Assembly (NCBI RefSeq): GCF_000979455.1
Contig: NZ_JJOY01000049.1
Location: 124,001-188,000, forward strand
DNA: 64,000 nt
Source: Methanosarcina sp. 2.H.T.1A.6
GTDB taxonomy: Archaea > Halobacteriota > Methanosarcinia > Methanosarcinales > Methanosarcinaceae
Direction: 5' to 3'
This document shows positions 11,987 to 18,731 of this stretch, one piece after another; positions within the stretch are counted from its first letter, which is position 1, and every line of letters begins with the position of its first letter. A model generated the notes under the pieces. The model did not search any database, was not told the DNA's origin, and worked only from the letters and a program-made list of their open reading frames with translations. Position numbers and translations under genes: made by a program.

Positions 11987-13420
11987 ATGAAAAGTAACAC
12001 TATATCAACAACGCCAACTGTCACTTTTTCGATTTCACTTCCATCTGTGGCAATGTCTAATGAAGCACACATAGGATACGCCCTCACAAGAGCTTTGGGG
12101 ATAACAGCACTTGCGATTTTAATATTGGTGAGTTTAGCAGGTGCCGCTCCTTTTGCATATGTGACGAGTATAGGTATCGACACCGGCACTGTTTTTGTAA
12201 TTGACACAGCAACTAACAATCTTACAGCCGTGGTGCCTATAGAAGGCTGGGCTGGAGAAGCCGCAATCAACCCTGCAGGAACAAAGGTATATGTGACAGA
12301 CTCATCAGGATTCAGCACCAATGTTTTTGTAATTGACACCGCGACAAACACTGTTGATGCAGTAGTGGATGTGGGAATTTATCCCCGGAAAGTTGCAGTT
12401 AATCCCAAAGGGTCCAGGGTTTATGTGACGAATCGTTACAGTAGAGTGGACGATAACAGCAACAATGTCTCTGTAATTAACACAGTAATTGGCACATCCA
12501 CAAACACTGTAATGGACCCGGTTAATATGGGGCTAAGTACTTCTGACGTTGCATTCTCCCTGGATGGGAAAAAAATCTATGCTACCAACAGTCGCAACAA
12601 CACTACCTCTGTAATTGATGCGGCTACAAACAAAGTTACAGCTATTGTTCCTGTAGGAGATTATCCTACTGATATTGCGGTCAGTCCTGATGGAAATGAA
12701 GTGTATGTGATTAATTCAGGGAGCAACAATGTTTCTGTAATTGACACGGTTACAAACAATGTTACAGGAACTGTATCTGTAGGAGACAGCCCCGGTGATA
12801 TCGCAGTCACTCCTGATGGTAAAAAGGCATATGTGACAAACTCCGGTTCCTACAAAGATCCCGGCAACACTGTTTCTGTAATTGATACATCAACAAACAC
12901 CGTTACAGCTACAGTGTATGTAGGAACTGCTCCGAGGGGGATTGCAGTCACTCCAGATGGAAAAAAGGCATATGTAGTGATCTCTGATAGCTACTCCAGC
13001 GACTACAATAATAATGTCTCTGTAATTGACACAACCACAAACACTGTTACAGCGACTGTGAATACAGGAAAATATACTATGAACGGTCCTGCTGGAGTTG
13101 TCATTGGACCTTTTAGAAGTTCTGATATGACTGATCAAAGCATAAAGGCAACCTACAATGAAACTGGCCAGAGTACAATGGCGAATTTAAACGCAACTGA
13201 AGATATAGGAGTTGAAGAAACTAACTTATCATCGTCTGAAGACAAAAGTGCTGTTGAACTCAATAATTCAAACAATAGTAATGATACAAATAATTCTGAA
13301 TCTGATAACGGTAGTGTCTCAGGTGGAAATGAACCGAGCAAAAATAATTCTACTCCGGGTTTCGAATTATTGGGGAGCTTGACCTGTATTTATGGAGGAT
13401 GGATACTTCGGAAAAAGTAA
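11987..13420 (+). CDS. YVTN beta-propeller cell-surface protein with PGF-CTERM anchor
   Basis: A 477-residue exported protein. After about 35 residues comes a signal-like helix (ALGITALAILILVSLAGA). Then about seven repeats of roughly 42 residues follow (VIDTATN...V.VG..P..IAV.PDG...YVTN), the YVTN propeller of archaeal surface-layer proteins. A Ser/Asn-rich stalk (about 400-452) leads to TPGFELL, a hydrophobic segment and RKK, the PGF-CTERM signal. GAGGG at 11974-11978 supports the ATG at 11987; ATG 12053 is an alternative. The stalk and anchor DNA is nearly identical to that of the 16876 gene. Likely role: adhesion or envelope structure. Confidence 0.85.
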   Translation: MKSNTISTTPTVTFSISLPSVAMSNEAHIGYALTRALGITALAILILVSLAGAAPFAYVTSIGIDTGTVFVIDTATNNLTAVVPIEGWAGEAAINPAGTKVYVTDSSGFSTNVFVIDTATNTVDAVVDVGIYPRKVAVNPKGSRVYVTNRYSRVDDNSNNVSVINTVIGTSTNTVMDPVNMGLSTSDVAFSLDGKKIYATNSRNNTTSVIDAATNKVTAIVPVGDYPTDIAVSPDGNEVYVINSGSNNVSVIDTVTNNVTGTVSVGDSPGDIAVTPDGKKAYVTNSGSYKDPGNTVSVIDTSTNTVTATVYVGTAPRGIAVTPDGKKAYVVISDSYSSDYNNNVSVIDTTTNTVTATVNTGKYTMNGPAGVVIGPFRSSDMTDQSIKATYNETGQSTMANLNATEDIGVEETNLSSSEDKSAVELNNSNNSNDTNNSESDNGSVSGGNEPSKNNSTPGFELLGSLTCIYGGWILRKK

Positions 13421-13565: not shown

Positions 13566-14162
13566 ATGGGTAAAATCAATACGGAGATCGCTATTTTTAT
13601 TGTATTTCTTATTCTCTTAGCTTTTTGGGGGCTATTTATTAGAGTTCCAGTTGAGGACACGCAAACGACAGCTGATGAGCTGAAGGTAAGTGGTATGTAT
13701 GTCCAGTTTGAAAACGGAACTTCCGATCATGAAGTTGCAACTATTCTTAAAAACTGCAACATGACTATGGACTACAGCATAAAGTACAATATTGATTCTA
13801 TGGCGAATGAGTACTACATTATGTTAGACAAAGATGAAAGGGATGTGAGACGCGAACTGAGCGAAGGGATGAAGGAAGATAATAAAGATTGGACGGTGTC
13901 TTCTCCGTCACATGTTATCAGGAGAGAAGATTATTACGTAATTATGGTATCTGAACAAGCTACCAATGATGAAACTTTTCTTGCGATACTGGATAAATAT
14001 GATATTCAGATGAAAAAATCTGTTTGGTGCTATATTCGCTTTGAAAAGCCGGATGGATCCAGGTATTGGATTCCAGAGGAAAATGCAATCAGAATAAAAA
14101 ATGAACTTGAAAGTAATGAAAGTATTTTTTCTGTACATATTGACTACATTTATGATCAATAA
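13566..14162 (+). CDS. UPF0228 family protein (copy 1)
   Basis: A 198-residue protein of a family I know from Methanosarcina, function unknown. One N-terminal helix (about 6-27) anchors or exports it; the rest (about 40-198) is alpha/beta. Two halves look like an internal repeat: strand, helix with ILKNCN, strand, then again strand, helix with ILDKYD, strand, ending [15 protein letters not shown] (13557-13560) precedes ATG 13566. Clearly a paralog of 18195-18731 (shared FENGT or [13 protein letters not shown]). It sits directly behind a PGF-CTERM surface protein, as the second copy does. Confidence 0.85.
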
Positions 14163-15406: not shown

Positions 15407-16489
15407 ATGAACCGTAATAAAATTGGAGCAGGTATACTTCTTTTGGCAGTACTACTTACTGGAGTAGTATTCGTAGCTTCCGCGTCTGACGACAATAGTC
15501 AAAATACACTACCAAAAGGCGAGATATTTGAATTTAACGAGTCAAATTCACAACGTGTAGAACTACCGGATTTCGGCCCTCATATTATGATTATCTGAGA
15601 AAAGACCTCAATGTTTTAGCAACAAAAGGTAAAATCCCACAGTATGATACTCAAGTAGAAAGGCAAAACTGGCTTGCTAAGCTTAATGATATTAGAGTTA
15701 TCGCACGAAATGAATTAAGTCCTTATGCGTATCCAAAAGGGCCAGTTTTAGCACATGGTTTTGACATAAATGGCACAATGAAAGTTTTTCTTTATGAGGG
15801 TATGAATGTTACGGACACTCAAATCAATGAAATATACAATGTAATAAATGCAATAGGAAATAAAAAGAATATACAGGACATTCCTGTTATATTCAAAAAA
15901 AGCGATTTCGTCAAAGATGCTGTTGCGAGTGGTTATGATACTAAGTATCGTAATCCATTAATTGGTGCAATACAGCTCACTGGTCAAACCGGCGCTAGGG
16001 GAACACTGGGTTTTTGTGCTAAAACGGGTAGTGGAACTGGATATGTTACTGCACAACATCTTGGAACTCATGTAGGTTATCAGATGTATCAGCCAACGAA
16101 AACATCACAAAATTCGTTAGGTACTGTTTCAATGATTAGCGGTCATCATGCAGATGCATGTTTCGTTCCATATGGTGATGTGTCTGCAAAAATTCATATC
16201 GGTAACGGAAACACTTTACCAGTAGTTACTTATATGTCGGCACAACCAAGCGATGAATGGTCTGGCCTGACAGTGTATAAGTCTGGGAAAGTATTATGAT
16301 TTAATTGAAACAGATGTTCATATTGAGAGTGGAGATAGTGGAGGTCCATTGTATACCATGCCAACAAGTGCCAATAAGTGTAATATTATAGGAATTGCAA
16401 AGGGTGTTATGGCTGGTAACTCTCTCTTCTCGTCAGTTTATGGAATTAAGTACGATTTAGCGGGTGTTGTTGTACCAATCACAACTTAA
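15407..16489 (+). pseudogene. Secreted trypsin-like (S1) protease with pro-domain, two frameshifts
   Basis: Frame 1 (15407-15598) gives a signal peptide (about 5-26). Near 15583-15590 the homologous reading moves to another frame (YDYLRKDL onward) and continues through a pro-domain (about 15650-15900) into a chymotrypsin-fold domain with TAQHL (His) and HHADACF (Asp). Near 16285-16300 it shifts back to the first frame to give SGDSGGP (Ser), ending at 16489. All three catalytic residues survive, so the gene decayed recently or contains sequence errors. Signal, pro-domain, protease order resembles streptogrisin/alpha-lytic-type enzymes. The pro-domain matches two domains of the 16876 protein. 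Expression would be under leader copy 3. Confidence 0.8.
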
Positions 16490-16875
16490 ATAGTATATAT
16501 AAAATAACCTTTATACTTAAGCTCATCCCATTACCAATTTTATTTTCACATCTTATGAGAGTTTTGTTTTATAGCCTGAATTCGACAGATTCATTTAGTT
16601 TGTGTAGTATGTACTTACAAAAAACGCATTGCTTCGGCACAACGAGTTTATAATATCTGAATTATGGCAAAAATCAATAAAAACACGATAAACTTTGAAT
16701 AGTATGAATAAAACAGATGCAGAAAGCTAATTTGTTTATTAGAAAAGGTATGCTTCTGTCAAATTAAGGTTACAAATGTTTTCATGCTCATAGGTTTGAT
16801 TGATTATTCTAAACTCAAGACAAAGGAAAGGTGGTTTTGGGATTGGCTCTTTTATAAATGCTTTGAGGAACTTGC
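16490..16875. other. Intergenic stretch, nothing recognised
   Basis: About 390 AT-rich bases between the protease pseudogene and the surface protein. GAGGA at about 16865 is the ribosome-binding site of the next gene; no other signal seen. Confidence 0.5.
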
Positions 16876-18051
16876 ATGGAAATACGAAAACTTCTCTTCA
16901 TATTTTCAATAGATATTCTTTTGATATTTGGTTTCACTACATGTGCGGTTTTCGGAATAAGTTCAAACGGTAATAAATCAGCTCAATCAGGTGATTACTT
17001 GAGCTATGAAGTCAGCAACGTAAATTTCGACAACTACAACTACTTTTTTGGTCTTAACTCATACGGGAATACTGTAATTACTATATACGGCAAACCCCCT
17101 GCACGGGATACTGAAGAACAAAAAGACCGATGGAATTCTACTCTTGAAGAGCTCAGTAGTAAAACAAAAGCTACTCTTGCTTCCAAATATATGTATCCTC
17201 ATGGAGAAGTAGTAACATGTGGGGCTAATACCAAGGGGTACTTTGTGATTTTATTTAAGTATGGCAATGTTGATGAATCGTTGATGAATGAAATATATGC
17301 TCAAATAGACAACTCTGCAAGAGAAATGAGCATATACGACATTCCAGTAGAATTCGGATATGGTACATATTATCGGCAGAAAATTCCACTGAGTGATGGA
17401 CTCAGAGAATATGAATTTGGAAGAAGCATAGAAAACCTTTCTGAATCTGATATACAGATTATCGAAGAGTATATGATGCAAAAACATGAATCAGTTTACA
17501 AAGGTGGAGATATTGCAAATTATGGAACTATTCCCTTACTGAAAGATAAGAACGAGCATGACGCATGGGTACATAAAATGATGTTGATTTTTCACCACAT
17601 TAGAGGAAAATTAGATTCGTATATGGATAAAGGTCAAATTAGCTCATATGCATACGGATCCACTAGATTGGAAGTCGGGATTCCCCAAAATTTGTCCTAT
17701 GAAGAAAAGACAGCTATTGCTAAAGAAAGTTATCAAGTAATTGATGGAGAAGCAAGAAAAGAAAATGTAACTGATGTTCCTGTTGCTTTTAAAAGTGTGG
17801 GGAACCTTTATAATGCAACCGAAACTGATGATTTAAGACCAATTGAAGAAACTAACTTATCATCGTCTGAAGACAAAAGTGCTGTTGAACTCAATAATTC
17901 AAACAATAATACTGATACTAATAATTCTGAATCTGATAATGGTAGTAGCTCAGGTGAAAATGAATCGAGCAAAAATAACGCTACTCCGGGCTTCGGATTA
18001 TTGGGAAGCCTAGCTTGCCTATATGGAGGGTGGAAACTCAGGAAAAAGTAA
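16876..18051 (+). CDS. PGF-CTERM surface protein with two protease-pro-domain-like repeats
   Basis: A 391-residue exported protein: signal helix (about 5-27), domain 1 (about 78-163), linker, domain 2 (about 222-308), Ser/Asn-rich stalk (about 322-366), then TPGFGLL, a hydrophobic segment and RKK (PGF-CTERM). Both domains share a pattern with the pro-region of the adjacent S1 protease: a Trp about 7 residues in, then a Tyr/Gly turn before a strand, then DIPVEF or DVPVAF at the end (protease: DIPVIF). The stalk DNA shares 66 identical bases with the YVTN gene. Possible roles are an anchored inhibitor, a folding helper or a decoy; none is shown. Confidence 0.75.
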   Translation: MEIRKLLFIFSIDILLIFGFTTCAVFGISSNGNKSAQSGDYLSYEVSNVNFDNYNYFFGLNSYGNTVITIYGKPPARDTEEQKDRWNSTLEELSSKTKATLASKYMYPHGEVVTCGANTKGYFVILFKYGNVDESLMNEIYAQIDNSAREMSIYDIPVEFGYGTYYRQKIPLSDGLREYEFGRSIENLSESDIQIIEEYMMQKHESVYKGGDIANYGTIPLLKDKNEHDAWVHKMMLIFHHIRGKLDSYMDKGQISSYAYGSTRLEVGIPQNLSYEEKTAIAKESYQVIDGEARKENVTDVPVAFKSVGNLYNATETDDLRPIEETNLSSSEDKSAVELNNSNNNTDTNNSESDNGSSSGENESSKNNATPGFGLLGSLACLYGGWKLRKK

Positions 18052-18183: not shown

Positions 18184-18194
18184 CGGTGATTTAT

Positions 18195-18731
18195 ATGAGT
18201 AAAATTAGCAAAGCAGTAGTTGTTTTTATTGTTTTTCTGATTTTCTTAGTACTGATGATGCAATCTCAAGAAGTTAAAGTAGCTGGTTTACTTATTCAAT
18301 TTGAAAATGAAACTACTGAGCCGGAAGTTAAAGCCATTCTTGAAAATTACAACATACCTGTGAATTATACCATAGACTACAATTCTAATATTGGGCGAGG
18401 AATGTATTACATAAAAGTAGATGAAGATAAAATAAATGAATTGAGGAAATATGAAAATTGGACTTCTTTAATTGAAATCAAAAAAGGAAGTTATAACATA
18501 ATTATGTTATCTGAAGAATTTGTTCCAAATGAGAATTTTCTTACAATGCTGGAAAAAAATAATCTTCAGCTGAAAAAGGCCGTCGTGTGTTATATCCATT
18601 TTGGAGATGGACCACATAATTGGGTCGTGGGGAAGAATTGTGTTCTGGAAAAGGATGCAATCAGGATAAAAAATGAGCTTGAAACAAATGAGAAAGTTTT
18701 GATTGTAGGCCTGGATGATATTGAAGGGTAA
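18195..18731 (+). CDS. UPF0228 family protein (copy 2)
   Basis: A 178-residue paralog of the 13566 gene: N-terminal membrane helix (about 4-22), then two similar alpha/beta halves (about 28-95 and 96-178). The first contains LIQFENETTEPEVKAILENY and the second MLSEEF...LTMLEKNN, each strand-helix-strand, with a closing [15 protein letters not shown] at 18186 is in frame, but GGTGA there is the ribosome-binding site for ATG 18195. Function of the family is unknown. It sits directly behind a PGF-CTERM gene, as copy 1 does. Confidence 0.85.
   Translation: MSKISKAVVVFIVFLIFLVLMMQSQEVKVAGLLIQFENETTEPEVKAILENYNIPVNYTIDYNSNIGRGMYYIKVDEDKINELRKYENWTSLIEIKKGSYNIIMLSEEFVPNENFLTMLEKNNLQLKKAVVCYIHFGDGPHNWVVGKNCVLEKDAIRIKNELETNEKVLIVGLDDIEG

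Follow-up and report, generated by a model that had tools for sequence, protein, structure and literature searches.

A surface protein of Methanosarcina sp. 2.H.T.1A.6 with two protease pro-domain copies is a candidate tethered propeptide-like inhibitor

The stretch of Methanosarcina sp. 2.H.T.1A.6 DNA analyzed here (contig NZ_JJOY01000049.1, positions 124,001 to 188,000; 64,000 nucleotides in all, hereafter the window) contains the remains of an S1 protease gene and, downstream on the same strand, an intact gene for a surface protein that carries the protease's pro-domain twice. The protease gene spans positions 15407 to 16489 of the window and, as judged by tblastn of intact relatives, is not readable in one frame. 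The first piece (15407 to 15580, forward strand, frame 2) encodes the signal peptide and the start of the pro-region, and the second (15577 to 16287, forward strand, frame 1), which is 54 to 56% identical to intact relatives, holds the pro-domain and the catalytic His (codon 16057 to 16059) and Asp (codon 16153 to 16155). The third piece (16286 to 16489, forward strand, frame 2) runs from the GDSGGP motif, within which lies the catalytic Ser codon (16337 to 16339), to the stop. About 21 to 23 codons of the relatives are absent upstream of the third piece, and the frame changes twice overall. A single slip could be explained by an error in the draft sequence, but two slips together with the loss of codons look like decay.

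The surface protein (16876 to 18051, forward strand; 391 residues) starts 386 bp after the protease gene. It has no catalytic domain, its reading frame is intact, and its ratio of nonsynonymous to synonymous substitution rates (dN/dS) of 0.24 to 0.34 against four relatives indicates purifying selection. It ends in a PGF-CTERM-like anchor (17983 to 18048, forward strand) made up of TPGF, a hydrophobic stretch, and a basic end, and similar tails occur elsewhere in the genome. The hydrophobicity of the tail is modest (1.23), and none of the CTERM models scored above cutoff although the PGF/hydrophobic/basic motif is visible; an archaeosortase A-type gene is present in the genome (TIGR04125, expect value [E] of 3.5e-76, above cutoff). 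The first-pass annotation of this DNA described the protein as anchored to the cell wall. Because the organism is an archaeon, the tail is better read as a membrane or S-layer anchor. A YVTN beta-propeller protein encoded at 11987 to 13420 ends much as the surface protein does, in a near-identical PGF tail and a linker rich in Ser and Asn (65% across its last 103 residues), and this combination looks like a copied cassette.

The region preceding the catalytic domain of the protease recurs twice in the surface protein, as that annotation had proposed. With the pro-domain (15601 to 15924, frame 1) as the query in a one-sequence BLASTP search, run with the composition correction and the low-complexity filter off, two nonoverlapping matches were obtained in the 391-residue protein, the first at residues 67 to 170 (30% identity, E of 3e-13) and the second at residues 213 to 306 (26% identity, E of 2e-7). 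In a genome-wide single-sequence search the link to copy 1 was clear (E of 1.4e-8) and the link to copy 2 was weak (E of 0.006). Profile-profile comparison agreed with the BLASTP result and was significant for every pair: pro-domains against first domains (E of 2.1e-23), pro-domains against second domains (E of 3.5e-17), and first against second domains (E of 1.3e-10). Three separate alignments served as input, each restricted to rows of one context, and the domain borders were those of a search model built from the three window copies as seeds. The pro-domain and both stretches of the 391-residue protein therefore form one domain family of common ancestry. Its members in the window, all on the forward strand, are the pro-domain, intact in frame 1 (15610 to 15921), copy 1 (17059 to 17370), and copy 2 (17503 to 17799). 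The homology begins earlier than was first noted, and the DRWN and DAWV motifs start at residues 84 and 229 rather than at 78 and 222.

Structure predictions for the three domains, which had been suggested as a check, did not differ in fold. AlphaFold2 gave all three copies the same order of strand-helix-strand-strand-helix-strand, with copies 1 and 2 modeled on the window protein and the pro-domain modeled on an intact relative, in which the elements lie at residues 71 to 75, 84 to 100, 115 to 121, 125 to 131, 138 to 154, and 162 to 167. Confidence was moderate (mean predicted local distance difference test score of 65.5 and predicted template modeling score of 0.47 for the intact relative, 75.2 and 0.54 for the window protein), and the relative placement of the domains was therefore left uninterpreted. 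None of the Pfam and NCBIfam models covers the pro-domain in the window proteins and relatives scanned.

The catalytic domain is that of an alpha-lytic/streptogrisin-like S1 protease, a chymotrypsin-type double barrel with a His-Asp-Ser triad. The residues H, D, and GDSG are invariant in 23 protease relatives, the catalytic profile matched 2sfa (E of 1.7e-14) and alpha-lytic protease (E of 4.6e-13) in the PDB, and the protease model aligned with 2sfa in VIA with a Z score of 18.5 and a root mean square deviation (rmsd) of 2.9 over 179 residues. This structure comparison is dominated by the catalytic domain and barely probes the fold of the pro-domain. Full-length Foldseek matches to rice NAL1 were rejected, as the VIA alignment was restricted to the catalytic part. 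A plasmid collection gave no match to the catalytic domain.

The conservation of the arrangement was assessed by collecting proteases from 237 genomes of the class Methanosarcinia by the catalytic profile alone and then reading the surrounding DNA, which avoids a choice based on neighbors. The first set comprised 49 intact proteases with a pro-domain. Of these, 44 were followed on the same strand by a catalysis-free partner gene, and one of the five without a partner sits 252 bp from a contig end. The second set, drawn from the remaining places, added four intact proteases without a partner, all paralogues in one genome (G117). Across the class, then, 44 of 53 intact pro-domain proteases have a downstream partner with one or two copies of the domain, at a distance of 11 to 437 bp (median, 112; 44 pairs in 31 genomes). 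None of six catalytic relatives without a pro-domain, two from the first set and four from the second, has such a partner (Fisher P of 1.1e-4, kinship ignored). A hydrophobic N-terminal stretch was present in 44/44 partners, and a hydrophobic C-terminal tail was present in 40/44 partners versus 2/44 proteases. The pairing of a protease with a partner behind it is thus real and widespread in the class.

These counts leave out 10 broken, truncated, or duplicate catalytic open reading frames (ORFs) of the first set, two of the window pieces included; in all 10 a pro-domain gene follows downstream at a distance of no more than 650 bp. Four further ORFs without an in-frame pro-domain were put aside; of these, G066 (at a contig edge) and G127 (cut or broken) have a partner and stand outside the six. 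Fragments and partial matches of the second set (L191, L195, L196, L197, and L199, the last with a partner) were also omitted, as were three ORFs whose pro-domain is cut or overlaps in another frame (two in L185 and one in L190). The genome with the four partnerless paralogues (L185 to L191; 1.7 Mb, 79% complete) contains ten catalytic matches to this protease family. When a named collection was scanned with a pattern, 10 loci were obtained, with the partner behind the protease in all; they come from Methanosarcina, Methanohalophilus, Methanococcoides, Methanolobus, and one Clostridiales-titled record, whose protease duplicates L130, and as they are mostly from the same genomes as the class set they do not amount to an independent second sample.

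The domain tree shows repeated conversion of one context into the other. It requires 8 changes between pro-domain and partner, at least 6 of them forced by well-supported branches, and a single change of context was found in 0 of 200 bootstrap trees, in a tree with few columns for many rows and some long branches. In one genome (G182), the 181-residue partner is the pre-pro half of its own protease (85% identity over 155 residues), and a short hydrophobic tail takes the place of the catalytic domain; in another (G090), partner and pre-pro half are 75% identical over 173 residues. To judge from these alignments, both partners are recent copies of the pre-pro half of the neighboring protease. 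The dN/dS between pro-domain and partner is 0.27 and 0.28 in these two pairs, and so the copy appears to have been retained like a pro-domain. In-place duplication evidently occurs, and the partner could be its by-product, sharing no function with the protease. We regard this as very improbable, however, as the pairing is kept in 44 of the 53 cases in 31 genomes, anchor tails are present in 40 of the 44 partners, and the dN/dS among the partner orthologues compared is 0.17 to 0.34.

The domain is more widely distributed than the pair. Within the genus its profile matched 26 of 30 genomes, within the class 81 of 237, and in a sample from the phylum 83 of 392, with many copies per genome. In the regions fetched it occurs before S1 proteases, as a single or double copy on proteins that have an anchor tail, and behind HEAT repeats; in two loci, the HEAT-repeat protein (L086:4013-5200 and L089:9618-10913) lies directly downstream of a protease with the pro-domain. 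Six of the fetched proteins, 558 to 598 residues long, carry the double domain behind a region of ~200 residues that elsewhere lies at the N terminus of proteins with a Peptidase_C39_2 domain at the C-terminal end (E of 2e-10, 3e-8, and 4e-17 in three scanned proteins). Anchored proteins of this kind, with the C39-like pro-region and two S1 pro-domains, are found at L033:9767-11509 and L042:2898-4574 (reverse) and in relatives. One anchored, catalysis-free protein thus brings together pro-regions from two unrelated families of proteases, and the C39-like one is a second pro-region reused in the same way.

Pro-domains that have become separate inhibitors are known from other protease families. 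In Plasmodium, SUB1-ProM is described as a stand-alone propeptide-like protein encoded beside subtilisin genes and as a potent inhibitor of SUB1 (PMC6993865). Like SUB1-ProM, which inhibits one of its neighboring proteases (PMC6993865), the proteins described here are pro-domains without a catalytic part encoded beside a protease; unlike it, a soluble protein of the vacuole that belongs with the subtilisin family, they are archaeal, anchored, of one or two copies, and associated with an alpha-lytic-type protease. The I29 propeptide-like proteins crammer, CTLA-2alpha, and BCPI are reported to act as cysteine protease inhibitors (PMC4089206). They differ in being soluble, eukaryotic, and derived from papain-family pro-domains. 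No Pfam match to Inhibitor_I9 or Inhibitor_I29 was obtained in the window surface protein or the relatives scanned. The pro region of alpha-lytic protease (PF02983; 3PRO/4PRO), which precedes the same kind of protease as here, is reported both to assist folding and to inhibit the mature enzyme (PMC2605481). The window protein matches this pro region only weakly in structure, and the PF02983 profile is unmatched in the window proteins, in the four intact proteases scanned, and in the genome of the strain (searched at an E threshold of 0.1). The alpha-lytic pro region is known in cis only.

The window partner shares with the propeptide-like inhibitors the trait of being a homologue of a protease pro-domain without the catalytic domain, and we propose, with modest confidence, that the gene at 16876 to 18051 encodes a surface-tethered propeptide-like inhibitor of an alpha-lytic-type protease. 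The protease would be secreted as a zymogen and its own pro-domain cleaved off. The partner, whose C-terminal tail would fix it to the membrane or S-layer, would display uncleavable pro-domains, which would bind the mature enzyme in trans and block its activity close to the producer, so that the cell's own envelope would be protected or the place of enzyme activity set. Export, removal of the cis pro-domain, and binding in trans are inferred steps; capping of the mature enzyme close to the envelope of the producing cell is the most likely role of the tethered copies because, by analogy, the alpha-lytic pro region inhibits its enzyme and SUB1-ProM inhibits SUB1. In the present genome the protease would have decayed and the tethered protein been retained, possibly as a guard against related proteases of neighbors.

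Several observations weigh against this proposal, chief among them the decay of the window protease and the large number of orphan copies. The first-pass annotation supposed a secreted protease that the surface protein could act on, but in a whole-genome search with the catalytic profile the broken window copy was the sole match, with no second protease copy, and 42 of the 81 domain-bearing genomes of the class have no catalytic match. That the N-terminal domain is a pro-domain that is removed is inferred from its position and from the alpha-lytic family. The window protein model aligns weakly with the alpha-lytic pro region, in its C-terminal half (4pro_C, Z score of 5.9, rmsd of 2.8, 70 residues aligned), and with the prodomain-like protein 4hlb (Z score of 6.0, rmsd of 3.0, 80 residues aligned), and these matches are tied with ones to unrelated metal-transporter MamM/MamB domains (Z score up to 7.2). 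Foldseek returned nothing at an E of 0.001 for the two-domain model, its best rows being ribosomal, and the domain profile found chance-level matches alone among PDB sequences (best E of 0.72). Beyond the class, 11 pro-domain proteases were counted elsewhere in the phylum, of which 3 have a partner and 8 do not (L177, L180, and L181, in which no pro-domain was found, and fragments in L183 and L184 are excluded from the 11), and two of the three partners have a hydrophobic N terminus and no C-terminal anchor. Among the class pairs, 43 of the 44 of which were used for this comparison, partner domains resembled the pro-domain of their own protease above chance (10,000 permutations, P of 1e-4), in a test that leaves the shared ancestry of close species in place, and the own pro-domain was the best match in just 6 of the 43. 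One-to-one specificity of protease and partner is accordingly not claimed, the resemblance being above chance on average and not pair by pair. The presence of the domain on HEAT-repeat and other proteins, and in protease-free genomes, suggests that it may do more than cap. In the two loci outside the class whose partners have no C-terminal anchor (L170:3128-3685 and L171:3234-3806, reverse), the partner lies 4 bp from, or overlaps, the protease frame.

This distribution raises the alternative that the domain is a generic envelope-binding or self-associating module that targets the protease to the surface, the partner being another surface protein and perhaps its docking site. Occurrence on HEAT-repeat proteins and in protease-less genomes, and the many copies per genome, would be expected of such a module, but the domain sits directly before the mature protease strand, a C39-like peptidase pro-region is reused in the same proteins, relatives lacking the pro-domain also lack adjoining partners, and whole pre-pro copies such as that of G182 fit a pro-domain better; we consider this alternative unlikely. 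The partner might instead be a membrane-tethered steric chaperone that aids folding of the protease during or after export. Lif/LipH is likewise membrane anchored and acts on a secreted enzyme, and the order of enzyme and then tethered helper is the one familiar from Lif. Lif is not known to derive from a lipase pro-domain, however, and its lipase is not known to have a pro-domain of its own, whereas all 53 proteases counted here have one in cis (by definition of the set). The pattern of an obligate helper is also absent: the partner is missing for 9 of these 53 and for 8 of the 11 elsewhere in the phylum, and partners are still present beside a broken protease and in genomes without one. Folding of the protease, one of the roles first suggested for the partner, is less likely than trapping or silencing it because many proteases have no partner and partners outlive proteases, and we give the chaperone a slightly smaller chance than the generic module.

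The inhibitor proposal may be extended, more tentatively. Tethered pro-domains could shield Methanosarcinia from their own proteases and those of their neighbors, with protease-less genomes keeping an orphan immunity, and the pro-domains of the shield would have been copied repeatedly from at least two unrelated families of secreted proteases, the alpha-lytic type and the C39-like type. We hold this wider scheme to be possible but doubtful.

The window pair is flanked on both sides by genes for UPF0228 proteins, at 13566 to 14162 (PF05727, E of 2e-49) and 18186 to 18731 (E of 2.1e-44), both on the forward strand. UPF0228-like ORFs also occur near other pro-domain proteins (G005:C2:2909776, G008:C1:637647 and 638416, G001:C1:5147301, and G000:C44:202189). 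UPF0228 was considered as another pro-domain-like inhibitor and rejected, its profile finding no match in the PDB.

No description of a pairing between a protease and a tethered pro-domain was found in the literature, searched at the level of titles and the opening lines of abstracts. The detached pro-domain inhibitors known so far are a few eukaryotic cases from the subtilisin and papain families. If the proposal is correct, the pro-domain of a protease with the chymotrypsin fold has been copied repeatedly, across a whole archaeal class, onto a protein tethered to the membrane, which would amount to a natural evolution experiment in turning an intramolecular chaperone and inhibitor into a separate inhibitor. 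It would also provide a large, still nameless family of surface proteins in methanogens with a function that can be tested.
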